Positions 20,950-36,372 of a stretch of DNA of 36,372 nucleotides are shown in pieces. A model generated the notes under the pieces. It ran no database searches and was not told the DNA's origin. It saw only the letters and a list, made by a program, of their open reading frames with translations. Every line of letters starts with the position of its first letter. Within the stretch, counting starts at the first letter, position 1. Origin of the DNA: Nitrospirota bacterium (lineage in GTDB: Bacteria > Nitrospirota > Nitrospiria > Nitrospirales > Nitrospiraceae); NCBI GenBank assembly GCA_016200355.1, contig JACQEY010000020.1, positions 1-36,372 of the forward strand. The letters run 5' to 3'. A program made the translations under genes and the position numbers.

Positions 20950-21039
20950 GGAGGGGTGACGGAGTGGCCGAACGTGCCAGTCTTGAAAACTGGAGACCTC
21001 GCAAGGGGTCCGCGAGTTCAAATCTCGCCCCCTCCGCCA
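20950..21039 (+). tRNA. tRNA-Ser(UGA)
   Basis: A class II tRNA of 90 bases including an encoded CCA. The acceptor GGAGGGG pairs with CCCCTCC; the anticodon stem CCAGT/ACTGG encloses CTTGAAA with TGA as anticodon; the long variable arm and the GTTCAAATC T-loop are present. It follows serS directly. Its 3' side carries the remains of an integrase gene (21092-21291), so it has probably served as an integration site. Confidence 0.95.
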
Positions 21040-21091
21040 TATTTTCCCGTGTAATTTGAGGTTTTTGACTCGGAGTTCTCGAAATTGTGGC

Positions 21092-21291
21092 TCAACTGTG
21101 GCTTAACTTAATGGTCCTCCGTAACGACTGGTCCAGGATCGTGAGCTTCTTGAGACCTTCCGTCAGATCCGCTTCACAGACAATCGCATACCGCCGGTAG
21201 ACCGCTTCGGTCTTGTGGCCTGTCAGCTTCATCGCTACGGAACGCGGCACCCCTGCCCGTTCCAGATTCCTCACCGCTGCGTTTGCGAGAA
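21092..21291 (-). pseudogene. Tyrosine recombinase (integrase), C-terminal remnant
   Basis: About 65 residues of an integrase end: 'AVRNLERAGVPRSVAMKLTGHKTEAVYRRYAI' contains the late catalytic-box GHK motif (the usual GH[S/K/T]) and the nucleophile region 'YRRY'. The conserved R and HxxR boxes and everything upstream are missing; the sequence changes abruptly to transposase-like sequence on the other strand at about 21292. It reads toward tRNA-Ser(UGA), 52 bases away, as expected for the integrase of an element inserted in that tRNA. Confidence 0.8.
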
Positions 21292-21297
21292 TAGGCG

Positions 21298-21450
21298 GTG
21301 AGCCGTGTGCGCTTGGGCTATCGACGGCTCACGGTCTTGTTGCGACGGAACGGCTGGCGCGTGAATGCGAAACGAATCTATCGACTTTATACGGAAGAAG
21401 GGCTGCCGGGGCGGACAAAACACCGCACGAAGGCCGCGGGCCGGCACCGC
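21298..21450 (+). pseudogene. IS3-family transposase (OrfB) fragment
   Basis: The frame reads 'RLGYRRLTVLLRRNGWRVNA' followed by 'KRIYRLYTEEGLPGRTKHR', which is the helix-turn-helix-like N-terminal part of IS3-group OrfB (RYGYRRLHVLLRREGW.VN.KRVYRLYREEGL). The DDE catalytic core that should follow is absent in all frames. The frame continues open to 21888 but without resemblance to a transposase. Confidence 0.75.
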
Positions 21451-22156
21451 GTTTGTTGCCGAGTGGGTCGCGGCGACCACGCCGACGGACCAGGACACCC
21501 CTGCATTACTGGAACCCCTCACGTGAGCTATGCTAGGTTCACATCGCCGCATGGGCGGCCCAAACCGATCACGTGCAGATCAATTTCTCAGGTCTCGTTC
21601 GGTCTACATTCGCGAGGCGGGTCAAAATTGCGCCTGACTCACATTGCGGCTGGTACAACTACAGGGGACAGGTCAAGCGGATCATTGAGAGGGGACAGCG
21701 GCTGCCGAAGGGCACGACAGGCTGAATCCACGTTGCGCGGAACAGACCGAAGAGGAATGAGCCGAACTCAAAATAATGGGAGCAAGCGATACCGTCTGAC
21801 AACAAGCAGGGTCACCAGAAAATATCACCGCGTAGAGCGGAATACCTTGAGAAATTCAAAGACCCCCCTTGGCAAAAACGTAGATTGAATATTTTTGAGC
21901 GAGAGTAGTTTTCCTGCACAATTTGCTCCGATAATACGTCCACGCTTCATGTCCACCACAGATATTACGAATCTGACAAGAAACCTTGGGACTATCCCCT
22001 GGAAGCATTAGTGACACTAAGTGAAACCTGCCATGCTGAGGAAACCGAGAACCGCCCAGCCGAGGAACGAACACTCTTGCGAGCAATGAAACAGCACTTT
22101 TTTCAGCGGAAGTAAATACCTCGCCCCTTTGGCGCACAAACGCAACAAGTAATATC
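21451..22156. other. Accessory debris, no gene recognised
   Basis: About 700 bases between the transposase fragment and the nuclease remnant. Open frames are present but short of recognisable motifs, ribosome sites or domain-like composition. The base composition becomes more AT-rich from about 21780. Probably decayed inserted DNA. Confidence 0.5.
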
Positions 22157-22520: not shown

Positions 22521-22889
22521 ATGTCCAGCGCTATTCGTGTCCTTCTTACGCTGAGTGTCCTTCTCTCCAGCACGAGCTTATTCTTGACTGCCTGCGAAAC
22601 CAGTAGCCCTTCAATATCGAACATGGCAGAGAACAGCACGGTGCGTATGATGGCCCAACCATTCGTTCCCGGGGAGGTATTGGTCAAATTCAAGCCTTCC
22701 GTGTCCCCAGCACGCATCGACGCCATTCTGAAGGAAAGCGGGACGGAGCTGATTACCGAGAATAAGGGCATTGGCGTCCATCACGTTCGAATCGTGGGCA
22801 AGGAATCTGTTGAATCTGTGGTGAAGAAATTATTCACCTTCCAGGAGGTTGAATTTGCCGAGCCGAATTTCCGATTCCGGACCCAATAA
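22521..22889 (+). CDS. Lipoprotein consisting of a stand-alone subtilisin propeptide domain
   Basis: A 122-residue protein. It has a lipoprotein signal (hydrophobic 'LLTLSVLLSSTSLFLTAC', lipobox Cys near residue 25), a short linker, and then a single propeptide-like domain: 'VPGEVLVKFKPSVSPARIDA', 'VESVVKKLFTFQEVEFAEPN'. The same arrangement is seen in the next protein ('VPGELIVKFRDAASAATIAA', 'AVEYAEPNYLY'), where it is the prodomain of an S8 protease; here no protease follows. Known stand-alone propeptides of subtilases act as inhibitors or folding helpers in trans, so a regulator of the neighbour is likely. The protease start is 34 bases downstream. An AGGAGA lies 13 bases before the ATG. 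Confidence 0.8.
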   Translation: MSSAIRVLLTLSVLLSSTSLFLTACETSSPSISNMAENSTVRMMAQPFVPGEVLVKFKPSVSPARIDAILKESGTELITENKGIGVHHVRIVGKESVESVVKKLFTFQEVEFAEPNFRFRTQ

Positions 22890-22923
22890 ATGGCGCCGAA
22901 ACTCTTCCTCGAAGAGGCCCTGG

Positions 22924-25194
22924 ATGAAGGCACTGGTTGTCGCGCTCCTCGTCGTCTCCTCCATCTGTGTGGTCTGGACCAGCGCCAGGACGGCTGATAC
23001 CAAGCGGCCGAGTGGGGCGTTTACGCGGCTCTCCGGAAGCGAGTCACAGCCCGCTCAGTATGTGCCTGGCGAGCTCATCGTGAAATTCCGAGACGCGGCC
23101 TCGGCGGCCACGATTGCGGCGGCGCATAGTGCCGCAGGGGGCCGTGCACACAAGACCTTTGCGGCCGGTACCAGCAGGCTCCATCATCTCAAGCTCAATC
23201 CGGAGGTAGTCGTCGAAGATGCGGTGAGCAAGTATCAACAAAGCCCGGCGGTGGAATATGCCGAACCCAACTATCTGTACCAAGCGTCGATGATTCCCAA
23301 CGATCCTCAGTTTACGTCGCTCTGGGGACTGCACAATACCGGTCAGACCGTCAACGGCACTGCCGGCACCGCCGGCGCTGACATCGAGGCCCCACACGCC
23401 TGGGACCTCACCACTGGCAGTTTCAACGTGATCATCGGCGTGGTGGATACCGGCATCGCCTATGACCATCCTGACCTCGCGCCGAACATGTGGATCAATA
23501 CGGGGGAGAGTCCCAATGATGGTCTCGACAATGATGGCAATGGGTTTATCGACGATGTGAACGGCTATGACTTTGTCAATAATGACCCCGACCCCATGGA
23601 CCCTCCGGACCCTCAAGGCAATCCAGGACATGGTACGCACGTGGCTGGAACAATCGCCGCGGTCGGGAACAACGGCCTAGGCATCACGGGGGTGATGCAC
23701 ACAGCCAAGCTGATGGCCTTGAAAGCCGGAGATGTGAACGGGAGCTTCCCCCTCTCTGCCATCCTCCAGGCAGCGGATTATGCGCGCATGAACGGCGCTC
23801 GCGCCATCAATGCCAGCTTCGGAAGATCCGGTGGCCCTTGCAGCCAAGCGGAATATGACATGGTCAGCGCCCTCAATACGGCCGGGGTTATGTTGCTTGT
23901 CGCCGCCGGCAATGCTAGTGCGAACAACGATGTGACCCCGAGCTATCCGGCGCAGTACAGTGTGGCGACCGCTTGTGGGCCGGGTCTGCCCAACGTCATC
24001 GCGGTCGCCGCGATTGATCAGAACGGCAACAGGGCGAGTTTTTCAAATTTTGGTGCCACCTCCGTGCAAATTGCCGCGCCCGGCGTGAACATCAATAGCA
24101 CCAGACCAACATCGACTGTCACCTTTGCGCTGTTCCATAACTACGACTCAAATCCTGGCGCACTCGGCTATACCACCACCGGCACGAATAATAGCTGGGG
24201 TTTCACGAACAATGTCTCCTTGAGTCCTCCGACGAGCTTGACGGACAGTCCGGCAGGGAATTACCTCAACAACACCGATTCATTTGCGACCGGTCCGATG
24301 TTCAGCACAGTGGGACTGCGAGGCTGCCGACTTGTGGGCGACATACGACTCGCAACCGAGTTGAACTTCGATGGGTTTCTTCTTGATCTATCCCGGAACG
24401 GGGGAGCGACCTGGACTACGGTGGCCGGCGTCTCGGGATCGACAGGCGGTACGTTCGTCAACCTTGCATTTTCGGACATTCCCGATAGAAGTGCGAATAC
24501 CCAGTTCCGCGTCAACTTCATTTCGGACAGTAGCAATGTTGACGACGGCGGATATTTCGACAATGTGCAGGTCCGTTGTACGTCCGGCACGCCGTCCGGA
24601 ACGACTGATTATCAATTTCTTAAAGGCACGTCGATGGCGACGCCCCATGTGACGGGAGTCGTAGGGTTGGTCCTCGCTGCGAATCCAAACCTGGATATAG
24701 ACCAAATTCGAAACGCCATCCTCAACACGGGTATTCCCGTTCCTGCATTGAATGGAGTCGTCTCCACAGGCCGCCGGCTGAATGCTCGCAACGCTGTTGT
24801 CAGTGTGCTGAATAACTTCACTGTCACCGTCACCAAGGCCGGAACTGGCACGGGGACCGTAACCTCTAGCCCGTCCGGAATCGATTGCGGCGCATCTTGC
24901 AGCAGGGCATTCCCGTCACCGGGCTCTGCGACTCTCTCAGCGACAGCCACAGGTGGTTCGACATTCGAGGGCTGGACCGGCGGAGTCTGTGCTGGAACCG
25001 GCACTTGCGTGGTCAGTGCCAACGCAAACGTGATGGCGACCTTTACAGCCGCACCGGCTGCCCCGCCCCCAGCCGATGGTGGCGGCGGAGGTTGTACGTT
25101 GGCTCAGGCTGGCACGAGCGATGCCCTGATGCCGACCCTGCTCCTTGTGACACTAGGATCACTGATTTGGAGAGTCAGACGTCGATGTAGTTAA
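22924..25194 (+). CDS. S8 family serine protease with JDVT-CTERM-type sorting tail
   Basis: A 756-residue secreted subtilase. Order: signal peptide (1-25, 'MKALVVALLVVSSICVVWTS'), propeptide ('VPGELIVKF...VEYAEPNY', about 45-120), catalytic domain with Asp in 'GVVDTGIAYDHPDL' (near 176), His in 'GHGTHVAGT' (near 239) and Ser in 'GTSMATPHV' (near 570), an inserted beta-rich domain between His and Ser (about 395-560), a divergent InlB-like B-repeat ('TVTSSPSGIDCG...FEGWTGG'), and a tail: GGGGGCT, hydrophobic stretch, RVRRR. The tail fits JDVT-CTERM, which is processed by MrtJ; such a gene follows. The start at 22924 is chosen for its signal peptide; the frame is open to 22849 (TTG). Confidence 0.9.
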   Translation: MKALVVALLVVSSICVVWTSARTADTKRPSGAFTRLSGSESQPAQYVPGELIVKFRDAASAATIAAAHSAAGGRAHKTFAAGTSRLHHLKLNPEVVVEDAVSKYQQSPAVEYAEPNYLYQASMIPNDPQFTSLWGLHNTGQTVNGTAGTAGADIEAPHAWDLTTGSFNVIIGVVDTGIAYDHPDLAPNMWINTGESPNDGLDNDGNGFIDDVNGYDFVNNDPDPMDPPDPQGNPGHGTHVAGTIAAVGNNGLGITGVMHTAKLMALKAGDVNGSFPLSAILQAADYARMNGARAINASFGRSGGPCSQAEYDMVSALNTAGVMLLVAAGNASANNDVTPSYPAQYSVATACGPGLPNVIAVAAIDQNGNRASFSNFGATSVQIAAPGVNINSTRPTSTVTFALFHNYDSNPGALGYTTTGTNNSWGFTNNVSLSPPTSLTDSPAGNYLNNTDSFATGPMFSTVGLRGCRLVGDIRLATELNFDGFLLDLSRNGGATWTTVAGVSGSTGGTFVNLAFSDIPDRSANTQFRVNFISDSSNVDDGGYFDNVQVRCTSGTPSGTTDYQFLKGTSMATPHVTGVVGLVLAANPNLDIDQIRNAILNTGIPVPALNGVVSTGRRLNARNAVVSVLNNFTVTVTKAGTGTGTVTSSPSGIDCGASCSRAFPSPGSATLSATATGGSTFEGWTGGVCAGTGTCVVSANANVMATFTAAPAAPPPADGGGGGCTLAQAGTSDALMPTLLLVTLGSLIWRVRRRCS

Positions 25195-25227
25195 CTTGAC
25201 GCTCAATTCTCCAACCCACTATCCTGT

Positions 25228-25260
25228 CGAGGTTCCCAGGGACAATTCATGGGAACCTCG
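25228..25260 (+). other. Intercistronic hairpin between protease and MrtJ genes
   Basis: Perfect 11-bp inverted repeat: CGAGGTTCCCA (25228-25238) and TGGGAACCTCG (25250-25260), loop of 11. It sits 33 bases after the protease stop and ahead of the GTG (25268) and ATG (25292) starts of the next gene. No T-tract follows, so it is more likely an mRNA processing or stabilising hairpin than a terminator. Confidence 0.55.
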
Positions 25261-25267
25261 GCGAGAT

Positions 25268-25771
25268 GTGAACACCACCACGTCCCATATCATGTCGGCA
25301 CTGTGCGAACTACTTGGACTCAAACAGGTGCCGGGCTTTTATCGTTCCCCGATTTTTCTCTCCTGTCTCGCTGTAGGCGCGGCCTTCTGGGGGGTGTTGC
25401 CGCTCCTGGTGGCCGTCCAGCCCTTACCCTGGCATCGCATTGTGTCCCTGGCCTTCTTCTTGGCTGTGGTCTGGCAGCCGATTGTCGAAGAGCTCTTGTT
25501 CCGTGGATGCCTGCAAGGGTTCCTGTCCATTCGTGAATGGGGACAGCGATCCTTGGTCGCGATCAGCATCGCGAATCTCCTGACTTCTGTGATGTTCACC
25601 GGTGCGCACATCGCGACACATTCGCTCCTTTGGGCAGCGTTGACGTTGTTCCCCTCGCTGCTGTTTGGGGTGCTGCGCGATCGGTTCGGTTCTGTCTTCC
25701 CTCCAATCGCACTGCATATCATCTACAACGCAGGGTACTTTATGCTGACAGGGGGTTCGTCGCTGGTCTGA
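25268..25771 (+). CDS. mrtJ: CPBP/glutamic intramembrane protease, probable MrtJ
   Basis: A multi-pass membrane protein of about 167 residues (GTG at 25268) or 159 (ATG at 25292). The longer frame from TTG 25196 would translate through the hairpin and is unlikely. CPBP motifs are all present: 'EELLFRG' (EExxxR), 'FTGAHIATH' (FxxxH) and 'LHIIYNAG' (HxxxN), set in hydrophobic segments. CPBP enzymes use a Glu and two His to cleave within the membrane. Given the adjacent substrate with a Cys/TM/Arg tail, it most likely cleaves that tail, as proposed for MrtJ. The symbol depends on that pairing. It directly follows the protease gene. Confidence 0.75.
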   Translation: MNTTTSHIMSALCELLGLKQVPGFYRSPIFLSCLAVGAAFWGVLPLLVAVQPLPWHRIVSLAFFLAVVWQPIVEELLFRGCLQGFLSIREWGQRSLVAISIANLLTSVMFTGAHIATHSLLWAALTLFPSLLFGVLRDRFGSVFPPIALHIIYNAGYFMLTGGSSLV

Positions 25772-27730: not shown

Positions 27731-27822
27731 GGAGAGGTGGCCGAGTGGCCGAAGGCAGCAGTTTGCTAAACTGCCGTAGGGGGAAACTTCTACCGAGGGT
27801 TCAAATCCCTCCCTCTCCGCCA
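27731..27822 (+). tRNA. tRNA-Ser(GCU)
   Basis: A 92-base class II tRNA with encoded CCA. Acceptor GGAGAGG pairs with CCTCTCC; anticodon stem GCAGT/ACTGC encloses TTGCTAA with anticodon GCT; the variable arm is long (CGTAGGGGGAAACTTCTACG); the T-loop is GTTCAAATC. Confidence 0.95.
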
Positions 27823-27828
27823 CAGCCT

Positions 27829-27894
27829 ATCTGGTTCATTTGGTTTGTTTCGTTGGTTTGGTTCAACCAAATAAACAAACCAAATGAACCAGAT
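27829..27894. repeat. 9-nt-unit hairpin repeat, copy 4
   Basis: The best member: arms 27829-27850 and 27873-27894 are perfectly complementary over 22 bp. It begins seven bases after tRNA-Ser(GCU), and a TTTTT run follows at 27910-27914. The inner loop contains a further small palindrome (GGTTCAACC). Confidence 0.9.
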
Positions 27895-27962
27895 ATACCA
27901 GGTAACTTGATTTTTCTCGGACGATCCTGTAACAGTGCCTCGCTCTTCTTTCCCTGAACCGT

Positions 27963-28038
27963 GCCGAGGTAGCTCAGTTGGTAGAGCACAGCCCTGAAAA
28001 GGCTGGTGTCGACAGTTCAATTCTGTCCCTCGGCACCA
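27963..28038 (+). tRNA. tRNA-Phe(GAA), prophage integration site
   Basis: A 76-base tRNA with encoded CCA: acceptor GCCGAGG/CCTCGGC, anticodon loop CTGAAAA with GAA, T-loop GTTCAATTC. The minus-strand integrase frame runs into it and ends at 27974, so the tRNA 3' part is the likely attachment core. The duplicate core expected at the far end of the prophage was not found in the window. Confidence 0.95.
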
Positions 28039-29185
28039 TCTTTCCACTACTTACGCGATTTTGAATTAGTTCTACGTAGGATGGTGGCACCTCTAGTGGC
28101 ACCTGGAAGGCTTTTTCCTGCTTTTTGGCACCGATTTTTTCACGTAGTTTCTGCTCGGTCAAGACAGCGAGCCGGGTGACCGCATCACGTAATCGTGAAT
28201 CCCAATCATGAATGTACAAGTCACCAGTTCCGGGAAGTCGATGGCCGAGAAGTTTTTCGATCACGATATAATCCACTCCGGCTTCGAGCAACCACGTTGC
28301 AAAGGTATGCCGTAGGTCATGGAAGTGGAGTTCATGCACCCCTGCCCGTTCAATCGTGTCGAGCCACCGATGCTTGAAGGAGTTCGCGTCCTTCCACCGC
28401 CAAAAGAACCGACCACCGGGTCTAGGGAGATCCCATCGCAACGCCGCACGGGCGAGGTCATTGATCGGAATGGCCTTCGCAACACGTTTGTTGGAGCTCC
28501 GTCCAGGCGACGGAGCGAGCCACAACCCATCCCCCCGCTGCACTAACCATTCTTCATGCATGTCGATCAGCTTGCTTTCCCGCATTCCGGTCTGAAGCGC
28601 GAGAATGACCACGCGCCAGACCTCCTGTGAGGCAGCTTGCTGGATCTTCTGTAATTCCCACGATTCTGCGACGCGTTCCCGCTTCACATACTGTGGGACA
28701 TGCAACCGCCGGAGTCGATTCTTATCCAGCGCTTCACACTCAACGGCCAGATTGAGCACCGCACTCAACACCGCACACTCTCGCTCGATGGTGCCCTCAG
28801 CCGCTTTTTCCGCTCGCCGTTTCTCCAAATACACTAAGCCATCTTCCATTCGCACATCGGCGAGCCGCTTTAATCCGAAGTGCGGAATGAGGTGCAGCGT
28901 TAACGCCTTCTCATTCCGATGATCTAAATCACGGCGCTTAGCTTTCATGTATTGCAAATACGTGGGAACGAAGGTGCCGAATGTCGGGCTCTCAGGAGGG
29001 AGGGCTCGTGTAATCTGCTTTTCAGCGGTATTTTTATGAATGGCTGTGATTATCTTAAGGGCCGCGTCTCGTTCCTTATCTGTGCTCAAGTTGATACCAA
29101 GGAATGGACGATATCGAATTCCTTGATACCAGTATGTGAGGACGGAACGAGTTCCTTTGGAAGTTGGGGTGCGGCGAATGTTCAT
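27974..29185 (-). CDS. Inovirus prophage tyrosine integrase
   Basis: A 403-residue site-specific recombinase. A SAM-like core-binding domain (about 65-165) precedes the catalytic domain with Arg in 'LQTGMRESKLIDMHEEW', the HxLR box 'FHDLRHTFATWLLEAG', 'KLLGHRLPGTGDLYIHDW' with the GH motif and a Tyr candidate. The last 20 residues are translated from the antisense of tRNA-Phe, so the gene acquired its current stop on integration or carries the tRNA core. The excisionase-like gene ends eight bases upstream. The closing GH[R/L] box has an unusual insert ('RLPGTG'); the nucleophile Tyr should be checked. Confidence 0.9.
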   Translation of the reverse strand: MNIRRTPTSKGTRSVLTYWYQGIRYRPFLGINLSTDKERDAALKIITAIHKNTAEKQITRALPPESPTFGTFVPTYLQYMKAKRRDLDHRNEKALTLHLIPHFGLKRLADVRMEDGLVYLEKRRAEKAAEGTIERECAVLSAVLNLAVECEALDKNRLRRLHVPQYVKRERVAESWELQKIQQAASQEVWRVVILALQTGMRESKLIDMHEEWLVQRGDGLWLAPSPGRSSNKRVAKAIPINDLARAALRWDLPRPGGRFFWRWKDANSFKHRWLDTIERAGVHELHFHDLRHTFATWLLEAGVDYIVIEKLLGHRLPGTGDLYIHDWDSRLRDAVTRLAVLTEQKLREKIGAKKQEKAFQVPLEVPPSYVELIQNRVSSGKMVPRDRIELSTPAFSGLCSTN

Positions 29186-29193
29186 GAGGACCG

Positions 29194-29424
29194 CTAGGAT
29201 CTCCCTAAAGAGAACAGAGGATTCCGATGGTACCCGTTCAGCTTACTCTCGTCAACCGCCTCAACTGCCACTTCCCGCTGCGCGCGAACCCATTGTTCCA
29301 AATCTTCCTCAATAAACATCACCCGATGCCCATAACGCACCCGTGGAATGTCGAGGCGCTGATATAGCGTCCTCTTGGTAAGCCGTAAGAACCGTGCGGC
29401 TTCATCAATGGTCAGGAGCGTCAT
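29194..29424 (-). CDS. Excisionase-type helix-turn-helix protein
   Basis: A 76-residue protein with a MerR/AlpA-like winged helix-turn-helix: 'LTIDEAARFLRLTKRTLYQR' then 'IPRVRYGHRVMFIEEDLEQW'. Such proteins direct excision (Xis) or regulate prophage promoters. AGG lies about six bases before the ATG. The integrase gene follows after eight bases on the same strand, so the pair is an int-xis operon. Confidence 0.8.
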   Translation of the reverse strand: MTLLTIDEAARFLRLTKRTLYQRLDIPRVRYGHRVMFIEEDLEQWVRAQREVAVEAVDESKLNGYHRNPLFSLGRS

Positions 29425-29490
29425 GTAACCTCCAAAAGCTTAGTACCGTCCTACTCACTTATATTCCGTTCTCGCAATTCGCTCTGAACC

Positions 29491-29512
29491 GGGGGAGTCT
29501 TACGACACCCCC
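29491..29512. other. Hairpin in prophage intergenic region
   Basis: GGGGG-A-GTC-TTAC-GAC-A-CCCCC: an eight-pair stem with one A/A mismatch. It lies between the excisionase-type gene and the RadC gene, which are transcribed away from each other. With the nested hairpin at 29654-29716 it makes the region resemble the structured intergenic region of filamentous phages. Confidence 0.55.
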
Positions 29513-29653
29513 ATACCCCCACGATGCGCCCGCATGGCCGCCGGCGTCGGATTCGGACTGCACTCCCAGTGGGTGCGAACTGGCGCTGCAGAGCAGCGGC
29601 CAGGCCTTCCGGGTGCCACTTCAGGCCTGTCCCCCGCGAGCGCACCATTCCGC

Positions 29654-29716
29654 CTTCTTCATCGACGCCCCACCCCTGTGCTGTGAAGGGTGGGGCTAAA
29701 CATCTTGATGAAGAAG
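29654..29716. other. Nested hairpin, candidate inovirus origin or packaging signal
   Basis: Outer arms CTTCTTCATC (29654-29663) and GATGAAGAAG (29707-29716), inner arms GCCCCACCC (29667-29675) and GGGTGGGGC (29688-29696), loop of 12. The outer right arm overlaps the ribosome site of the RadC gene. Filamentous phages keep their replication origins and packaging signal in such hairpins; this is the only gene-free stretch of about 300 bases inside the prophage core. Confidence 0.5.
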
Positions 29717-29725
29717 GAGACGGAC

Positions 29726-30232
29726 ATGGCCATTCACGGTTCACAGGGCATGCTGAATGGGCAACAGCAGACGCAGCCGAGGCATGAATACGCTGTGCCT
29801 CGATACCGGGTCACACTGGTGCGTGACAATCGGGCCATGCCGCCCTCATCACCACTGAACACCTCGGTCACCGCGGCAGCCGTCCTCAGACCGCTCTTTG
29901 CGGGACTGGACCGGGAACAATTCCTCGTCTGCGGATTGGATGCCAAGCATGCCATCATCGGCGTCAACGTCGTCTCGATCGGCTCCCTGACGTTGGCGAT
30001 CGTGCATCCGCGCGAGGTGTTCAAACCGCTGATCCTGATGAACGCGGCCGCCTGGATTTGTGCGCACAATCACCCGTCCGGCGGCGATGCGACGCCCAGC
30101 CTGGAGGATCGTGTGCTCACCAGCCGACTCCGGCAGGGGGCCGACCTGCTCGGCATCACCTTGCTCGACCATCTCATCCTCACCGACGAGCGCTGCTACA
30201 GCTTCGCAGACCAGGGCTGGCCCGGCGCATAA
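29726..30232 (+). CDS. RadC/JAB (MPN) domain protein
   Basis: A 168-residue protein. The start at 29726 is chosen for AAGGAG six bases before it; upstream in-frame starts lie in the hairpin. The JAB/MPN metal site is present: 'WICAHNHPSGGDATPSLEDR' (HxHPSG...D), preceded by 'VVSIGSLTLAIVHPREVFKP'. RadC-type proteins occur widely in mobile elements; despite the name, a DNA-repair role was not upheld, and the biochemical role is open. It is the only plus-strand gene in the prophage core and meets the coat-like gene 30237-30380 tail to tail, four bases apart. Confidence 0.85.
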   Translation: MAIHGSQGMLNGQQQTQPRHEYAVPRYRVTLVRDNRAMPPSSPLNTSVTAAAVLRPLFAGLDREQFLVCGLDAKHAIIGVNVVSIGSLTLAIVHPREVFKPLILMNAAAWICAHNHPSGGDATPSLEDRVLTSRLRQGADLLGITLLDHLILTDERCYSFADQGWPGA

Positions 30233-30236
30233 GGGC

Positions 30237-30380
30237 TTAGGCCCGCATGAGCCGGAGGACCCAGATCACAGCGGAGGCCGTCAGCGCGATTCCAATCACC
30301 GCCGCACCCCATCCGATGAGGTCCGCTGCAAGTGCATTCCCGAGTTGATGCAAATCCGTGGCTACGGTCGCGAGTACCAT
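30237..30380 (-). CDS. Pf3-like small coat-type protein without signal peptide
   Basis: A 47-residue protein: a polar N-terminal helix ('VLATVATDLHQLGNALAADL'), one membrane segment ('WGAAVIGIALTASAVIWVL') and a basic end ('RLMRA'). This is the design of a filamentous-phage major coat protein, and the lack of a cleavable signal recalls phage Pf3 (44 residues). GGAGGGGTGAT precedes the ATG, close to an extended Shine-Dalgarno sequence, consistent with high expression. It lies at the end of the structural operon, after the gene for a coat protein with a signal peptide. Which of the two is the main coat is open. Confidence 0.65.
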   Translation of the reverse strand: MVLATVATDLHQLGNALAADLIGWGAAVIGIALTASAVIWVLRLMRA

Positions 30381-30443
30381 CGATCACCCCTCCCACCAGA
30401 CAAGACGGCAGCCCGTGCACAGACTGCCGTCCCACCGACCCGA

Positions 30444-30644
30444 TTAATGCACCAACGACTTGACGCGCTTGTACGCGAAAATCGTCAGGGCCACCCCAAT
30501 GAACACCACACCCCACGCGACGATGTCACCCTTGACGCTGGTGATCGTGGTGGTTGTCGACGCGTCCACTGGGAACACCTGCGCCATGGCCTCTTGCGCC
30601 ATCAGCGCGAGCCCCAGCACGGCCACACTCACGTTCTTCCACAT
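30444..30644 (-). CDS. Inovirus major coat protein (pVIII-like), with signal peptide
   Basis: A 66-residue precursor: a signal peptide 'MWKNVSVAVLGLALMAQEAM' cleaved after about residue 21 (AMA), then a 45-residue mature protein with a polar N-terminal part ('QVFPVDASTTTTITSVKGDI'), a membrane segment ('VAWGVVFIGVALTIFAY') and a basic C-terminus ('KRVKSLVH') that would contact DNA. Length and layout match the Ff/CTX major coat. GAGGAACG precedes the ATG. It lies downstream of the Zot-like gene, whereas in Ff phages the coat gene lies before gene III. Confidence 0.85.
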   Translation of the reverse strand: MWKNVSVAVLGLALMAQEAMAQVFPVDASTTTTITSVKGDIVAWGVVFIGVALTIFAYKRVKSLVH

Positions 30645-30660
30645 CGTTCCTCACCCCCTC

Positions 30661-30771
30661 TCACTCCATTCTCCCGAGCAACAACTTCACGATCACACCG
30701 ACCGCAAAGCCTCCCAGGAAACACGCCCCCGCCCAATACACCAGGGCATCGACGGCCGCTTGATTCATCAT
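30661..30771 (-). CDS. Small inovirus membrane protein (36 aa)
   Basis: Too short for standard gene calling: 36 residues, tandem ATG start with GAGGGG just upstream, one membrane segment ('FLGGFAVGVIVKLLLGRME') and a polar N-terminus. It sits between the Zot-like and coat genes on the same strand, 8 bases before the Zot stop and 16 bases ahead of the coat gene start. Likely a minor virion or assembly protein; no specific assignment can be made. Confidence 0.5.
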   Translation of the reverse strand: MMNQAAVDALVYWAGACFLGGFAVGVIVKLLLGRME

Positions 30772-30779
30772 GCACCCCT

Positions 30780-31943
30780 CTAGAGTCCTGGTGGAGTCGC
30801 CAATAAGCCAGGAGGCGACGCGAGCAACCCCGGAGGACTCGCCAAGAGGTCCGTCTGTCCAGGCACCGCCGCAGGAGGAGGCTCAGTCGGTGCCATGCTC
30901 AGCGCACGGTCGCTCGTCGGCGTCTCCGCAGGCGACGAAGGAACCATGCCCGACGCATACGCTGGCTCCGATCGTGTGCCGCCGTAGATCACCCCCGTGC
31001 CAGACAGTACCCGCACGCCGCGCACCATGCGCGAGGACACCGTCCCGCCGGACTCCCCCGCGATCTCGTCCTCCGTCATCAGGTGTCCGTCCTCCGACAC
31101 CCATAGCCACACCACCTGACCACCCTGTATGGTCGTCATGCCGCCTTGAATGCGCACCGGCCGCACCGCCGAGGGCACCACGACCGGCACAGGCGCCACG
31201 GGCTGAGACACTGGGGCCACAGACAGCGGCGGCGGGAGTTTCGAGACGACAGCCGCTGGTACAGGCTTCACTCCAGAGAGCCAGCCCCCAAACGCAAACC
31301 ACCCGATCGCCACGACCAAACCAAGTACCCCTATGAGCAACGTCGGACTTTTCAACATGGAGCCTCCCCGCGCAGTTTCGCGCACCGTGGCTGAGGAATA
31401 GCTGGAATAGTAGGCGTAGAGCTTCGGCTCGTACTTGCCCGAGAACATCCGGATCACTTCCAACTCTTCAGGGTTGCCTCTCACCGAGGCCTGATACCGA
31501 TTCTTCAACCCAAACCGATCCAACCGGCGAAACTTTGTGGTCGCTTCCACCAACCGATTCACCCCGAGCGTCACTTGCCCATACTGTTGACACATCAGCA
31601 CCAGATCGATGCCCCTATGCCGATGGGTTTCGAGCCACCGCAGCAGTGCAGGGTCCGTCTTGTCTCTCGATCGGAACACGGTTTGCACCTCGTCAATCAA
31701 CACCGCGGACCCAGGCTCAACATCAAGCAGTCCAGCCTTCACGTCCTCACCGGAGTTCCAGAGCGTAATTTGTTGTTGCAACACCGCCAGCTCGGCACCC
31801 TCAAACAACGCGAGACGATCCAGGTAGAAGCCATCGACGAACACATAGACGCGCCGACCGGCACGCACCCACTTGAGCAATCGCTCTGACACCGCGTAGT
31901 AGGACTTCCCTGACCCTGGGACGCCTTCCAGCATTTCAATCAT
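30780..31943 (-). CDS. Zot-like assembly ATPase (pI family)
   Basis: A 387-residue inner-membrane ATPase that drives virion extrusion. The frame is open to 32228, but the ATG at 31943 overlaps the previous gene by four bases (ATGA) and puts the Walker A 'EGVPGSGKSYYA' at residues 5-16, as in the family; Walker B is 'GSAVLIDEVQTVFRSR'. The cytoplasmic ATPase domain is followed by a membrane segment near residue 195-215 ('LLIGVLGLVVAIGWFAFGGW') and a periplasmic tail rich in Pro/Val. The tail ends in a 7-residue repeat, LLASPPG, about three times. No pIV secretin gene follows. Confidence 0.93.
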   Translation of the reverse strand: MIEMLEGVPGSGKSYYAVSERLLKWVRAGRRVYVFVDGFYLDRLALFEGAELAVLQQQITLWNSGEDVKAGLLDVEPGSAVLIDEVQTVFRSRDKTDPALLRWLETHRHRGIDLVLMCQQYGQVTLGVNRLVEATTKFRRLDRFGLKNRYQASVRGNPEELEVIRMFSGKYEPKLYAYYSSYSSATVRETARGGSMLKSPTLLIGVLGLVVAIGWFAFGGWLSGVKPVPAAVVSKLPPPLSVAPVSQPVAPVPVVVPSAVRPVRIQGGMTTIQGGQVVWLWVSEDGHLMTEDEIAGESGGTVSSRMVRGVRVLSGTGVIYGGTRSEPAYASGMVPSSPAETPTSDRALSMAPTEPPPAAVPGQTDLLASPPGLLASPPGLLATPPGL

Positions 31944-32215
31944 GAGCCCCACCGCACAAACGGCACCGATTGCAAGAGAAATCGCACCCCCATCGCCCCC
32001 GCAATAATCGCAATCGCCTGCGACAGACCGGTTGCCCCCAGCAGCCAGGCGTACTGATCCGCGATCACCGGCACAGCCAGCGCACCAGTACCCACCGAGG
32101 CCAGGAGCGCATCCACCGGACTCAGGACCGAATCCCAGCCGATCAGCCAGATGTCTTTGAAGCTGGCGATCATGTCCATCAGAAAGCAGTAGATGAGATT
32201 CAACAGTGCGGTCAT
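31940..32215 (-). CDS. DUF2523-type protein, pVI-like
   Basis: A 91-residue hydrophobic protein with three likely membrane segments ('LLNLIYCFLMDMIA', 'GTGALAVPVI', 'LSQAIAIIAGAMGVRFLL'). It fits the DUF2523 family that lies between the adsorption protein and Zot in many inoviruses and takes the place of pVI, the end-cap protein that joins pIII to the coat. It overlaps both neighbours by four bases, so all three are translationally coupled. Confidence 0.8.
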   Translation of the reverse strand: MTALLNLIYCFLMDMIASFKDIWLIGWDSVLSPVDALLASVGTGALAVPVIADQYAWLLGATGLSQAIAIIAGAMGVRFLLQSVPFVRWGS

Positions 32216-33459
32216 CGTGCCCCCACAAAGATCATGCGATACGCCACGAAGCCCGCGATCGCGATAACGATCGATCGAATCGCGGTCAGCATGCCGGACC
32301 AGGCCGAGAAATCCAGCGTGAAGTTACCCAATAAATTCGACTGCAATGAGTAGGTCGGAATCGTCGTGGGCCACGTCAGCGTTTTCAGCAGATTCAGCGC
32401 AGAGAGTAGCCCGCTCCCAGTCCAGAGGTTCATATGTTCTTGCAGAATGCTTCCGAAGGTGCGTGGCTCATGATTGCCCGCCGCACAGGACACCGGAGCC
32501 GTGTCCTGACCGGTCTCTGTCGAGGTCGTGGTGACGGACCCATCCGGGTTGGTGGTCGTGGTCGTCGTGGTGGTTTTCGTGCCCGTCGTCGGTTGGGTTT
32601 GCGTTTTGGTGGTGACCGTTCCCGTAGGAGGATTGACGTTTGGGTTCACCACGAGGTCTGTGGGTTGCACGCTCGTCGCCGGGACTACGGTCGTGGCCAG
32701 ACCCGTCTCCGGCACCGGGACTGCACTGGTCGAATCCGCCGGCGTCGGTTGCGACTGCGCGCCCACCAACTGGGTATTTGATTCGAGCGACAACGGATCA
32801 CTCGCCGGCAAATTGCCGAGATAGCTTTGTACTTGTGCCGGTGTCGCTGGGGACGCCGCGCCCTGGACCGGAACAGGTGACGCACTGCCACTTCCTCGAA
32901 TGGCGTGGCAATTGTTTCCGAATGAAAACCACCCCGACCAGCCTGATGGGACGGCACCCGCGGCACTCGGATTACAGCCTATGACCCCAGCGGCAGACGG
33001 GACTAATATATAATGCGTGGTATTGGCAAACGGACAGGGTCCTCCCACAGACGTACAAGCCCCAATTGTTGACCCCGCAGGCTCCACATACCCAGGAATG
33101 TCCCACAATCCTGGCGGAGCCGCCGCCGTTTTCAACGCGGCCACTTTTGTTTGATCGTACACGTACATGGCCAACGTCATGCCCGCGACAATGCCCAAGA
33201 CCGGCCACCCCACCGAGGACGCGACCAACCGCACCGCCACAGACCCCGCCGTAGACGCGCTGATCCCCGTCGCCAAGGAGGCCACCGTCGCCGCCCGTTG
33301 CGCCGTCAGCATCGTGGAGACGGCCGCTTGTGAGGCGACGCGCACATACCCCGTGGTCGATGACGACACTTGAAACGCATAGGCAGGGAGCACGACGAGG
33401 TATAATGCGATGAGATCAACACACACGAGATAGAGGGCCCGCGTTAGTGTTTTCCGCAT
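32212..33459 (-). CDS. pIII-like minor coat / adsorption protein
   Basis: A 415-residue protein: signal peptide (about 1-29, 'LVVLPAYA'), a hydrophobic region near 75-100, a Cys-containing domain (about 125-200), a long Thr/Pro/Gln-rich linker with 'TTTTTTTTNPDGSV', and a C-terminal part ending in a membrane segment ('AIRSIVIAIAGFVAYRMIFV'). Position and layout match the receptor-binding protein pIII: N-terminal binding domains, low-complexity linker, C-terminal anchor. The host receptor cannot be read off. The 31-aa gene overlaps its start by 16 bases. Confidence 0.8.
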   Translation of the reverse strand: MRKTLTRALYLVCVDLIALYLVVLPAYAFQVSSSTTGYVRVASQAAVSTMLTAQRAATVASLATGISASTAGSVAVRLVASSVGWPVLGIVAGMTLAMYVYDQTKVAALKTAAAPPGLWDIPGYVEPAGSTIGACTSVGGPCPFANTTHYILVPSAAGVIGCNPSAAGAVPSGWSGWFSFGNNCHAIRGSGSASPVPVQGAASPATPAQVQSYLGNLPASDPLSLESNTQLVGAQSQPTPADSTSAVPVPETGLATTVVPATSVQPTDLVVNPNVNPPTGTVTTKTQTQPTTGTKTTTTTTTTNPDGSVTTTSTETGQDTAPVSCAAGNHEPRTFGSILQEHMNLWTGSGLLSALNLLKTLTWPTTIPTYSLQSNLLGNFTLDFSAWSGMLTAIRSIVIAIAGFVAYRMIFVGAR

Positions 33460-33539
33460 ACCATCCCCACCAAGAAACAGAGGACGAACAACGCCGCAAA
33501 TTCGAGCTGCTGCACGACTGTGAGCACGGTCCAGATCAT
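33444..33539 (-). CDS. Tiny membrane protein in the pIX position (31 aa)
   Basis: 31 residues, start ATG, with GGAAGGGTGAAGG upstream. One membrane segment ('FAALFVLCFLVGMVCG') and a short basic end ('KH'). Its place between the ssDNA-binding gene and the pIII-like gene, its size and its hydrophobic design parallel Ff pIX (32 residues). Sequence identity with pIX is not claimed. It overlaps the pIII-like start by 16 bases in another frame. Confidence 0.6.
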   Translation of the reverse strand: MIWTVLTVVQQLEFAALFVLCFLVGMVCGKH

Positions 33540-33549
33540 CGCGTGTCCT

Positions 33550-33621
33550 TCACCCTTCCATGAGCAGGCCGGAAAGGAAAGCCAGGAGCAGGACCATGAT
33601 CATGATGCTGGTCAGGTCCAC
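33550..33621 (-). CDS. Tiny membrane protein in the pVII position (23 aa)
   Basis: 23 residues from a GTG start with GGAGGAAGG 4-5 bases before it: 'MDLTSIMIMVLLLAFLSGLL' and MEG. Almost the whole peptide is one membrane helix. It lies 23 bases after the ssDNA-binding gene and 10 bases before the 31-aa gene, the place of pVII in Ff phages (33 residues). Confidence 0.5.
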   Translation of the reverse strand: MDLTSIMIMVLLLAFLSGLLMEG

Positions 33622-33644
33622 TGGCCTTCCTCCCGTCCCGTGCC

Positions 33645-33908
33645 TTACTTCACAATTTCCAGCGCGACGAGATCGAAGAAGATCTTGCCGGTGAGCTCGA
33701 ACTTGCGAATCTCCACCGACGCGCGCGCCTGCTTCCCTTCCGACTGCTTACAGACCTCGATCAGGTTGTGATGCTCCTCCGGAATGTTCAGCCGCAGGTT
33801 CCCCGGATCTTTGCCCTTCACGTACAGATCCATCGACCGGTATACCCGGTTCTCCTTGCCCTTCCGTTCGACATACCCCTGCACGCTGCCTTCGGCTTTC
33901 ACCATCAT
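33645..33908 (-). CDS. pV-like ssDNA-binding protein
   Basis: An 87-residue protein, the same length as Ff pV. The frame extends to 34010, but AGGAGG lies eight bases before the tandem ATG at 33908. It has alternating strands and basic residues ('AEGSVQGYVERKGKENRVYR', 'MDLYVKGKDPGNLRLNIPEE', 'ARASVEIRKFELTGKIFFDL') in the way of an OB-fold. It should coat the phage single strand before packaging. The call rests on position, length and strand pattern; no catalytic motif exists to confirm it. Overlapped by the zinc-ribbon frame. Confidence 0.65.
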   Translation of the reverse strand: MMVKAEGSVQGYVERKGKENRVYRSMDLYVKGKDPGNLRLNIPEEHHNLIEVCKQSEGKQARASVEIRKFELTGKIFFDLVALEIVK

Positions 33909-34086
33909 GATGCGGACCTCCTGATTGAGATGACGGATCAGAGACATTTCTGACCCAGTGGCCCCGGCCCACCGACCGGGTTTTTGGTAGAAACGTAAAT
34001 TCCGAATCACAGTCCCGGCAGGTCAGGACTAACGCGCCATTGATCCACCGGCAACCGCAGCCTCTCGCTCCACAGCCTGGACACAT
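33748..34086 (-). CDS. Zinc-ribbon protein overlapping the pV-like gene
   Basis: A frame of 112 residues; AAGGAG lies nine bases before the ATG at 34086, 14 bases after the rep stop. The first 35 residues form a Cys-rich zinc-ribbon ('CPGCGARGCGCRWINGALVL' then 'TCRDCDSEF'). The remaining 60 or so residues, from about 33905 on, are read through the pV-like gene in another frame and look compositionally biased (Gly/Arg/Glu). The N-terminal part looks real; whether the long overlapping tail is used is open. Confidence 0.5.
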   Translation of the reverse strand: MCPGCGARGCGCRWINGALVLTCRDCDSEFTFLPKTRSVGRGHWVRNVSDPSSQSGGPHHDGESRRQRAGVCRTEGQGEPGIPVDGSVREGQRSGEPAAEHSGGASQPDRGL

Positions 34087-34099
34087 GCGTTGCAACTCC

Positions 34100-35089
34100 T
34101 TAGACAGGACGGAGGACATAGGGTCGTGGCTTTCTGCCTTCGTGCAGCATGGCGAGGTGCCGAGCTTTCCATTTTTTCGAGCCGGCGTAGATCAACTCCT
34201 GGAGAAATTGATCACCACGGCGAAAGTAGGCCAGGGCTAACATCGCGCTGATGGACTGGCCCAGCCACTGGCACACCTCATCGAGCGTCTGTTGGACCTT
34301 CTCCACAACGAGCCGGCGTCGTGTGAAACCTTCGGTCAACGAGGCCCACCACGCGAGCAGCGGGGCCCGATACTTCTCCCAAGGTTCCGCTTCATGGGTG
34401 GTCTCGCGAAAATCGACATATGAGCGGAGCACACCGACGAGAAATTCTCGCCAATCCTCCGGCTCCAGCGTGAGCAACGCTTTCGCGCAAGCTTGCGCGC
34501 GGTCTTTTTTCAGTTCCAATTCCCACCGGACGCCATAGTCCTTCGCCTCTTCACGGCCTTTCTGTTCAAGTTCCAGTCGTTTGTCGTAGACGCGCAACAT
34601 GGTTTGACTCTCCCGACTGCCGAAATAGAGCGTGTCGCCAGTGGAGGCCCCATCGCGCAACGAGGACCCGGCAAGGACCTGGAACTTCTGTGATCGCGTC
34701 ACGGCTTGTCCTGCGTCCACGGCCTGCTTGACCTGTGCGATGGAGACCCCCGCCGCTCGATCATCCAAGGCCACATCCATCCGGGTCACGTGTCCCCCAC
34801 GGGTAAAGATCCAGGCCAGGACGCTGCGGATTTTCGATTCATCCCAGGTGGAGACGATCCCCCCTGAGAGATCCACGTGAACTTCTTTGCGATTGCGAAG
34901 GGCTCCCGTCCCGAGCTTGCCGACGCCATGACGGCCTTGATTGGTGAGCCAACAGGTGGGATAGCCACGAAAGCCCGTCGTCGTCTCGAACCACTCCCCA
35001 CCGACGACGGAACTCAGCTCGTCAACCGTCGCCTGAGGGACGGTGAAGGCGAGCCAATCAATGGTTTCTGTAAAAATTTGGTGCTCCAT
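34100..35089 (-). CDS. Rep, phage replication initiation protein (RstA-like)
   Basis: A 329-residue protein of the replication initiation factor family (Rep_trans-type, as in CTXphi RstA and plasmid Rep): 'FTETIDWLAFTVP', 'GFRGYPTCWLTNQGRHGVGKL', 'VTRMDVALDD', 'DTLYFGSRESQTMLRVYDKR', 'VRWELELKKDRAQ'. It should nick the double-stranded form to start rolling-circle synthesis; a Tyr nucleophile is expected and 'RVYDK' is the best candidate. The start at 35089 has AGGA six bases before it. It lies 22 bases after the HTH gene. Confidence 0.85.
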   Translation of the reverse strand: MEHQIFTETIDWLAFTVPQATVDELSSVVGGEWFETTTGFRGYPTCWLTNQGRHGVGKLGTGALRNRKEVHVDLSGGIVSTWDESKIRSVLAWIFTRGGHVTRMDVALDDRAAGVSIAQVKQAVDAGQAVTRSQKFQVLAGSSLRDGASTGDTLYFGSRESQTMLRVYDKRLELEQKGREEAKDYGVRWELELKKDRAQACAKALLTLEPEDWREFLVGVLRSYVDFRETTHEAEPWEKYRAPLLAWWASLTEGFTRRRLVVEKVQQTLDEVCQWLGQSISAMLALAYFRRGDQFLQELIYAGSKKWKARHLAMLHEGRKPRPYVLRPV

Positions 35090-35111
35090 GAACGGTCCTA
35101 CTGCTCCTCTG

Positions 35112-35393
35112 CTATACAAGCCCCCGTCTTACCGAACGGGGGCGTTTCTGCTGTGCGCGCCGCCGGCTGGCGCTGGCGATCGCGCCCTGCGGTGTCGAGT
35201 TACCATTGAGACGACGCATGCGGCTTCGTCCGTTGCGTGCCATCGCCCGTCGGACTTTCGCGAGATCGAACCGCGCCATGCGACACAACCACTCAACGGG
35301 TATTTCCCCATTACGGTACCCCCGTTGAATCGACTTCACGCTCATACGAAGTTCAGCTGCCAGTTCCTTGACCGTGAGCAACTCCTTTTTCAT
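35112..35393 (-). CDS. Helix-turn-helix DNA-binding protein of the prophage
   Basis: A 93-residue protein: 'LLTVKELAAELRMSVKSIQR' and 'GYRNGEIPVEWLCRMARFDL' form an excisionase-type helix-turn-helix, then a strongly basic tail ('ARNGRSRMRRLNG...ASRRRAQQKRPRS'). AAGGA lies eight bases before the ATG. It is the first gene of the minus-strand operon that leads into rep, so it most likely regulates replication or lysogeny. It is a second HTH of the same type as 29194-29424. Confidence 0.75.
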   Translation of the reverse strand: MKKELLTVKELAAELRMSVKSIQRGYRNGEIPVEWLCRMARFDLAKVRRAMARNGRSRMRRLNGNSTPQGAIASASRRRAQQKRPRSVRRGLV

Positions 35394-35912
35394 GCCCAGT
35401 CCTTTCTGCCGGTACGGCTCAGCACCGCGCTGACCATACCGGTGTGAGATGATGGTGAGAAGTACCCTGCTTACGCCTACTTAAGACAGTTAGGAACCAT
35501 TATGGACAACGGTCCCGAAGCGAGCGGGAGGGAGATGCAACTTCAATGCACAACGATAGGAAGACGTAATATTAAGAAAAGAGAGCAATCATGGATGTAG
35601 TAGGCGGTCGGTGGCGCAAAAGGGAAGAAGTTGAGCAAAAAACGGTCTCACCGTGACAATTCCAGCAGGAGTGAACGCGAGTGACGGGGATGAATGGTTC
35701 CATTTCAGAGCCACGCCCTCCCAAGTTGGGGTGCTTTCCTGCGGAGAAAGGGGTATTCTTCGGCTGGAAAATTGGATGGGAACCTAACCTATCTGTGGCT
35801 GTCTAGGACAAAACAAGCAGGGAAGTTTGCGATCTCTGGATTAATGTATGATCGCAAGACCAAGGGTTTCCCGGGGACACCCATTATTGATGCAGTTCGT
35901 ATACGCTGACCT
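35394..35912. other. Gene-poor stretch between prophage and CRISPR array
   Basis: About 520 bases, presumably with the promoter of the prophage operon and the prophage's right border. A frame at 35694-35909 is open but has no recognisable motif or ribosome site. No copy of the tRNA-Phe 3' end and no cas-like sequence were found. It is the trailer side of the CRISPR array. Confidence 0.5.
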
Positions 35913-36369
35913 GAGTTCATCCCCGCGCTCGCGGGGAACATGTATCCGTCCCCGAGGCAAACGCCTGCATCGGCGGTTCATCCCCGCGCTCGCGGGGAAC
36001 ATAAATGCGTGGAGATCAAGAGCACGGACAGTGCCGGTTCATCCCCGCGCTCGCGGGGAACATATCATCAACCCGACTTCTTGCGCCCGCGCCGTCTGGT
36101 TCATCCCCGCGCTCGCGGGGAACATCTCTGCCTGGTAATCGGGTCAGACCTGGATTGCGGTTCATCCCCGCGCTCGCGGGGAACATTTCTATTCCTGGAT
36201 CTCGAAGGAGCCGGCCGGCGGTTCATCCCCGCGCTCGCGGGGAACATCTCGGTCCCGAACATGATGAAGAGACGCAGGGCGGTTCATCCCCGCGCTCGCG
36301 GGGAACATACGAAATATGTGCGGGCACAATCTGCTGATGTCGGTTCATCCCCGCGCTCGCGGGGAACAT
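35913..36369 (-). CRISPR. Type I-E CRISPR array, eight repeats visible, trailer end
   Basis: 29-base repeats at 35913, 35974, 36035, 36097, 36158, 36219, 36280 and 36341, with seven spacers of 32 (one of 33) bases. The core CCCCGCGCTCGCGGGG is palindromic. Read on the minus strand, the repeat ends ATGAACCG, matching the I-E crRNA 5' handle (E. coli ATAAACCG), so transcription is from right to left. The left-most repeat is degenerate at its 3' end (GAGTTC for CGGTTC on the plus strand), as expected at the trailer. The array continues past 36369; no cas genes are in the window. Confidence 0.97.
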
Positions 36370-36372
36370 AAA

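Follow-up and report, generated by a model that had tools for sequence, protein, structure and literature searches.

A conserved gene trio of a lipoprotein prodomain, an S8 protease with a JDVT-CTERM-type tail and MrtJ in Nitrospirota: a candidate surface-display cassette

JDVT-CTERM proteins are, as a rule stated for beta- and gammaproteobacteria, encoded beside the intramembrane protease MrtJ (PMC11980579). In the published model for MYXO-CTERM tails, the protein is exported by Sec, anchored through its tail, lipidated at a Cys, cleaved by a CPBP-family protease and transported by the type II secretion system (T2SS); the lipidation step is a hypothesis in the source paper, and cleavage by the myxosortase MrtX depends on the Cys (PMC11980579). 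In Aeromonas, ORF2 serves the subtilase ASP in trans as chaperone and inhibitor, with its C-terminal Lys at the catalytic centre (PMC5638518). Here we describe, on a 36,372-nucleotide stretch from a Nitrospirota bacterium (the window; contig JACQEY010000020.1 of assembly GCA_016200355.1), three genes on the + strand (22521-25771) that encode a lipoprotein, an S8 protease with a JDVT-CTERM-type tail, and MrtJ, hereafter the trio. We put the probability at about two in three that the trio is a surface-display cassette for the S8 protease, with a lipid-tethered prodomain acting in trans, tail cleavage by MrtJ and export by the T2SS, the biochemical steps being deduced from sequence. Such a mechanism would be the MYXO-CTERM model transferred to this locus, with the lipoprotein added as a tethered trans prodomain. 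The trio is not a chance assembly, because its genes score well in hidden Markov model (HMM) searches and are conserved across genomes.

Three genes and their products

The initial annotation, made from the letters of the DNA, had placed a propeptide lipoprotein, an S8 protease and a CPBP protein here, and the open reading frames (ORFs) with their matches to PF22148, PF00082 and NF033192 agree with it (Table 1). The lipoprotein has 122 residues, with a hydrophobic signal, a lipobox and a single Pfam domain, PF22148 (Fervidolysin_NPro-like; 54.1 bits, cut-off 21). The bacterial lipobox follows the pattern [LVI][ASTVI][GAS]C, to which the window lipoprotein conforms (LTAC), while many relatives carry the weaker box STSC. 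Its top fold matches are the prodomains of fervidolysin, PC1/3 and subtilisin, and the ORF2 chain of the ASP-ORF2 structure (3wqb_B) is also among them; RRM and ACT domains turn up in the same search, so the fold by itself is not decisive. There is a weak sequence match to the BPN' prosegment (E 0.0043).

The prodomain of the window lipoprotein stops 6 residues past an E-x-N motif. Among 33 stand-alone lipoproteins adjoining S8 genes, a set without named duplicates, 32 stop 6-7 residues past the conserved E-x-[ND], and the remaining one is interrupted. The BPN' subtilisin prosegment likewise ends 6 residues past its capping Asp. The lipoprotein thus appears to end about where a prodomain is cleaved off its enzyme. 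E-x-[ND] corresponds to the helix-capping Glu and Asp/Asn of known propeptides (PMC6993865). The C-terminal residue is Lys in 25/33 lipoproteins and Gln in the window copy. A Cys follows the hydrophobic stretch in all 33 except the truncated L140, and Asp or Glu comes directly after the lipobox Cys in 24/32 (the Cys of L157 was assigned by hand). Four lipoproteins, those of L016, L188, L200 and L205, miss the PF22148 cut-off.

The S8 protease matches PF00082 with 190.8 bits, its own PF22148 prodomain scores 61.1 bits, and the nearest solved catalytic domain is that of deseasin MCP-01 (3vv3, E 1.8e-69). It carries the subtilase motifs VVDTG (23440), GHGTHVAG (23626) and GTSMATPH (24625). The TTG start at 22849 in the ORF list is probably wrong, and the ATG at 22924, which opens a signal peptide, is better. 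About 160 residues are inserted in the catalytic domain ahead of the Ser motif (window 24100-24600), an insertion missing from deseasin MCP-01 and, by eye, from the L018 relative.

The protease tail reads GGGGGC, about 20 mostly hydrophobic residues and RVRRR, with RVRRRCS at the very C-terminus, the run of Gly, Cys, hydrophobic stretch and Arg cluster that had been noticed initially. It has the JDVT-CTERM layout of Cys motif, hydrophobic helix and basic extreme C-terminus. By the JDVT-CTERM HMM (NF033191, cut-off 27) the expected match was found for the isolated tail (31.1 bits) and in the genome search (29.9), but not for the whole protease, which at 25.4 bits falls just short and counts against our reading; by score its membership is borderline. 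Three relatives' tails score 29.4-32.4 bits on whole proteins. Tails above the cut-off number one to three per genome in 12/13 searched Nitrospirota genomes, with none in the 13th.

The third gene, annotated initially as a probable MrtJ, proved to be one: NF033192 gives 100.8 bits, well above the cut-off of 75, and 101.2 from the GTG at 25268. This GTG is a likelier start than the TTG of the ORF (25196) and yields 167 residues, as in relatives 84% and 74% identical. EExxxR, FxxxH and HxxxN are all present, with the key residues invariant in 16/16 aligned homologues. The protein matches the fold of archaeal Rce1, and in the fold search the two CPBP structures, SpdC and Rce1, rank above every other match. 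The window gene adjoins that of the JDVT-CTERM protein. A viral origin of MrtJ was considered and dropped, no relative being present among viral contigs.

Table 1. Coordinates of the trio in the window
Feature	Position	Strand	Evidence
Lipoprotein: signal, lipobox Cys (LTA/C, then E-T), short linker, one subtilase-type prodomain	22521..22889	+	PF22148; fold matches
S8 subtilase precursor: signal peptide, own PF22148 prodomain, catalytic domain, JDVT-CTERM tail	22924..25194	+	Pfam, motifs
JDVT-CTERM sorting tail: GGGGGC, hydrophobic stretch, RVRRR	25078..25191	+	NF033191
MrtJ, CPBP-family glutamic intramembrane protease	25268..25771	+	NF033192; motifs

Conservation and separability of the trio

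MrtJ occurs in 4/32 genomes of the genus and in 37/395 genomes of the phylum (48 matches). We examined the surroundings of all 48 with purpose-built profiles, a few being cut short where the contig ends (to 2.5 kb in L150). An S8 gene with a JDVT-like tail precedes MrtJ in 32 of the 48; the other 16 have other substrates, tail remnants, or no tail detected by the built profile. Upstream of the 32 S8-JDVT/MrtJ pairs the lipoprotein prodomain gene is intact in 24, damaged in three (fragments in L140 and L143, an internal stop in L154) and absent from five (L131, L138, L139, L144 and L149). Both the gene pair and the three-gene order are therefore kept in relatives. Outside this sample the full trio is also found in G028 (L018). 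RSF6 (L023) carries it too, but there the MrtJ frame is truncated and some bases are masked, and in G025 (L017) the contig stops inside the locus. The nearest named loci belong to Nitrospira-type metagenome genomes such as REEB81, with an 85% identical MrtJ. That one gene has been split by a frameshift artefact is out, since the same overlapping or abutting frame pair recurs in many loci.

The trio stands in tandem copies at L159 and L168. One MrtJ copy of L159 has an internal stop; both copies of L168 appear broken or partial, with a third MrtJ (L153) about 17 kb off on the same contig.

Three damaged copies and five loci without any among the 32 are what one would see if the lipoprotein were a decaying, functionless remnant of a prodomain duplication. 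We consider this very unlikely, as the signal Cys, the motif and the C-terminal end are preserved in nearly all copies, and the lipoprotein is present with two protease types and in Proteobacteria. It is also common where MrtJ is: in a search of 52 genomes with a lipoprotein-prodomain profile, a stand-alone prodomain (open frame below 230 residues) was found in 24/32 genomes with MrtJ and in 1/20 without (Fisher p 4.9e-7; the Fisher tests on these groups are only a guide, the genomes being related and the negatives the first listed).

The single exception, G027 (L178), has the lipoprotein beside an S8 gene (1511 residues from the first start) without a JDVT-like tail, and genome searches found neither MrtJ nor a gspE above cut-off. 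No MrtJ lies within about 4 kb behind the lipoprotein and S8-JDVT pair of G240, of G323 and of the C31 locus of G215, but each of these genomes has one elsewhere. From these patterns it follows that the presence of the lipoprotein tracks the protease and that of MrtJ tracks the tail; as judged by gene content, the two associations are separate. The initial description of a three-gene module thus holds for the conserved order, but the lipoprotein goes with the protease rather than with the tail. Similarly, a MrtJ beside its substrate is borne out as adjacency and not as exclusivity, given the three pairs that lack a nearby copy. On contig C16 of G419, the genome of L031, four JDVT-CTERM proteins above cut-off occur with a single MrtJ, so one MrtJ may serve several substrates.

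The same data bear on whether MrtJ is a general CPBP protease that adjoins the protease gene by chance, with the tail a plain C-terminal membrane anchor. The whole-protein JDVT score just below cut-off would fit this reading, which we find hardly credible: the tail passes the cut-off alone, in two thirds of the phylum matches (32/48) the gene before MrtJ encodes an S8 protease with such a tail, and the sole relative found with the lipoprotein and a tail-less S8 protease belongs to a genome without MrtJ.

The S8 proteases fell into two types. Those of type II (L016, L155, L178 and L144, grouped by eye) have prodomains unlike those of type I. We compared 28 + 3 lipoproteins with 35 + 4 own prodomains (type I + type II; the incomplete L140 and L154 were dropped). 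The resemblance between lipoprotein and own prodomain is 31% for type I and 29% for type II, and that between the two lipoprotein types is 14%. A tree of 70 rows groups the lipoprotein and own prodomains of type II (97/96). This tree does not establish that the lipoprotein arose separately in each type, as a single origin is not rejected (approximately unbiased test, p 0.39; 82 columns, with long branches meeting).

The same genome holds a fused form of substrate and MrtJ. A single ORF of 966 residues (L010 5686-8586, G000:C39) joins a glucose/sorbosone dehydrogenase-like domain, PKD, a JDVT tail and a complete MrtJ core. The tail scores 28.4 bits by itself and 20.4 as part of the whole protein; the core scores 91.8 bits. 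In L025 the dehydrogenase-JDVT and MrtJ parts are separate genes, and unfused pairs also occur in L026 and L028; compared with L025, the stop codon and some 35 residues at the MrtJ N-terminus are missing from the fused ORF. No other MrtJ match in a frame above 451 residues was found among the 48 phylum, 18 L031-order and 55 L036-class matches. Known from one draft genome, the fusion may be an assembly error.

The source assembly is a draft of 2.94 Mb in 242 contigs, 92.6% complete. A scan for promoters and terminators gave no signal above chance. Upstream of the trio, at 20950-21550, are tRNA-Ser(tga) and then integrase and transposase fragments (judged by eye), which may place the trio in a genomic island flanked by two tRNA genes. 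Positions 27731-36372 look like an integrated filamentous phage: besides genes for tRNA-Ser and tRNA-Phe they hold a phage-type integrase, a gene of the Zot family (30780-32228) and, at 34100-35119, a Rep_trans replication gene.

Type II secretion and a model for the trio

Beyond the phylum, MrtJ gave 18 matches in 17/399 genomes of the order to which the Thiobacillus locus L031 belongs, and 55 matches in 53/369 genomes of the class of L036. We examined 40 of these proteobacterial loci, 17 of the 18 in the L031 order (the 18th being L031) and 23 of the 55 in the L036 class. The trio is present in three, L188, L200 and L205, where the lipoprotein was recognised by weak profile scores in L188 and L200 (24 and 33 bits) and by eye only in L205. 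With NF033191 the tail of L200 passes (35.2 bits), that of L188 reaches 26.6 against 27, and that of L205 gives no match at E 0.001.

Several MrtJ genes lie inside T2SS operons. In L031 the order is a JDVT protein gene, gspC, gspD, gspE, gspF, MrtJ, gspG and onward. Using nine gsp query proteins on about 13 kb around each proteobacterial MrtJ, we found MrtJ between gspF and gspG in six of the 18 L031-order loci (L031, L181, L185, L186, L188 and L190), and at L188 (6261-8769) the entire lipoprotein-S8-MrtJ trio sits between these two genes. Within Nitrospirota, the trio stands between gspC and gspE in G028 and RSF6, MrtJ adjoins gspC in G025, and G284 (L167) has gspC, gspD, a JDVT protein gene and MrtJ, then gspE within 3 kb. 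A gspE above cut-off is present in 36/39 genomes with MrtJ and in 11/20 without (p 0.0015, again only a guide given how the negatives were chosen). The source genome has its T2SS operon on a different contig from the trio.

Taken together, the domains, motifs, gene order, genomic link to the T2SS and separate lipoprotein-protease and MrtJ-tail associations are features of the genomes themselves, and the following model is built upon them. The protease precursor would be exported by Sec and then anchored in the inner membrane through its JDVT-CTERM helix. The lipoprotein would be a second, membrane-tethered prodomain copy acting in trans: it would dock on the catalytic domain and, in the manner of subtilase prodomains, place its C-terminus in the active-site cleft, and it would aid folding of the protease, hold it inactive in the periplasm, or both. 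The tail Cys would be lipid-modified, and MrtJ would cut next to it, removing the helix. Finally, the T2SS would carry the protease, in folded form and with its lipid anchor, to the outer surface, and the tethered prodomain would stay behind. The initial annotation had likewise proposed a protease cleaved in its tail, possibly lipidated at the Cys and displayed on the surface, with the lipoprotein restraining it; the T2SS link and the fused second system go beyond that annotation. The genomic evidence supports this interpretation, in which lipidation, cleavage and inhibition are predicted steps.

A number of observations weigh against the cassette as we propose it. The protease already carries its own PF22148 prodomain, and the lipoprotein is dispensable, being absent from five and damaged in three of the 32 S8-JDVT/MrtJ loci. 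Within the main group, lipoproteins and own prodomains from the same locus are no closer (30.7%) than in other pairings (31.5%), and in a second set of six the same-locus matching is not significant (57/720 permutations as high); neither comparison supports a fine matching of the two within loci, which we dropped. The L188 prodomain extends 13 residues beyond E-x-D. As to secretion, no T2SS embedding was seen in the 23 examined loci of the L036 class, the other Nitrospirota loci examined, with short flanks, showed no gsp gene, and gspE is also present in 11 of the 20 genomes without MrtJ. GspN is required for lipoprotein cargo of a T2SS (PMC12802150), and the GspN candidate of the source genome is under the Pfam cut-off (20.9 vs 29.6).

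A different function is that the lipoprotein chiefly helps folding, as a chaperone comparable to the ORF2 of Aeromonas ASP or to the membrane-bound chaperones of the T2SS, with inhibition as a side effect. Dedicated adjacent chaperones are known for secreted proteases (PMC5638518, PMC4713064), membrane-bound chaperones encoded beside T2SS effectors have been proposed as a class (PMC4713064), and 3wqb_B is among the fold matches. The protease's own prodomain should be enough for folding, however, and five of 32 loci manage without the lipoprotein; we regard a chiefly chaperone role as rather unlikely.

In E. coli, an Asp after the lipoprotein Cys favours retention in the inner membrane. The Asp or Glu at this place in 24/32 lipoproteins may keep them in the inner membrane, where the precursor sits. 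This location would suit an immunity-like guard that shields the cell's own envelope from the protease and has no role in maturation, and stand-alone propeptides are known as inhibitors (PMC6993865). Against a guard, some loci have no lipoprotein, and the E. coli sorting rules may not be those of this phylum; we think such a role somewhat improbable.

Returning to the tethered trans prodomain, a stronger form of the model can be offered tentatively, and we hold it to be short of an even chance. A prodomain fixed beside MrtJ in the inner membrane might act as a spatial gate that keeps the protease inactive until tail cutting and T2SS removal, so that release and activation become one coupled step. 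Each protease lineage would have recruited a prodomain of its own, giving more than one origin of the arrangement, which would be so tied to secretion that the genes sit inside a T2SS operon in some genomes.

If true, tethering a trans-acting prodomain to the membrane would be a novel means of keeping an exported protease harmless until it is outside the cell. The position of MrtJ between gspF and gspG, once with the whole trio, is genomic evidence for MrtJ sorting feeding the T2SS. The trio is also a small test system, separable by genetics, in which to ask about Cys-type C-terminal sorting: which acyltransferase is involved, what MrtJ cuts and by what route a lipid-anchored enzyme reaches the surface.

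Comparison with described systems

The GlyGly-CTERM/rhombosortase system resembles the trio in that the C-terminal tail of a T2SS serine protease is processed by an intramembrane protease, and differs in that this is a rhomboid protease, not a CPBP glutamic protease (PMC6219818, PMC13393428). In dentilisin (PrcB-PrcA-PrtP), a lipoprotein is encoded upstream of a surface subtilase and required for it; there, PrtP itself is acylated, and PrcB is described as without homologues outside oral treponemes (PMC8167434). The PrtP HMM gives 73.4 bits on the window protease against a cut-off of 300.

Prodomain folds as separate gene products are known from SUB1-ProM, Pleurotus POIA1, the yeast proteinase B inhibitor, Arabidopsis SPI-1 and TgMIC5 (PMC6993865). 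These inhibitors share the helix-capping Glu and Asn/Asp, and SUB1-ProM lies beside subtilase genes; they are eukaryotic, and none is described in the accessible part of the source as a lipoprotein tied to a sorting tail (PMC6993865). ASP-ORF2 (PDB 3wqb) is alike in having a separate gene that adjoins the subtilase gene, with the ORF2 C-terminus at the active site and a combined chaperone and inhibitor function (PMC5638518). ASP itself is propeptide-deficient, secreted and extracellular, with ORF2 encoded downstream (PMC5638518). Here, the protease retains its own prodomain, unlike the enzyme of an external-chaperone pair, and the extra prodomain is an upstream lipoprotein.

MYXO-CTERM/MrtX shares with the trio a Cys-containing tail, a CPBP protease and, in its published model, T2SS export (PMC11980579). 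The HMMs differ, and the window scores 11.5 bits for MYXO-CTERM (cut-off 20) and 27.2 for MrtX (cut-off 180). Against the one to three JDVT tails per Nitrospirota genome, M. xanthus has 35 MYXO-CTERM proteins (PMC11980579).

The closest system is JDVT-CTERM/MrtJ, for which both HMMs (NF033191, NF033192) match, the substrate gene precedes MrtJ, and the tail has a Cys, a hydrophobic helix and an Arg cluster. The present locus departs from that pair in its third gene, the lipoprotein prodomain, and in a phylum outside the beta- and gammaproteobacteria named in PMC11980579. Some substrates also lie away from MrtJ, MrtJ is found inside some T2SS operons, and one ORF fuses substrate and MrtJ. The combination with a lipidated propeptide, which the initial annotation had thought undescribed, found no report in the open-licence literature, where no paper by its title or abstract start deals with a lipidated stand-alone subtilase prodomain or with MrtJ in T2SS operons; the original MrtJ paper lies outside that literature and may contain the T2SS link. 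Within the literature searched, the sorting pair is of an already known kind, and the tethered cognate prodomain and the embedding in T2SS operons are the new parts.

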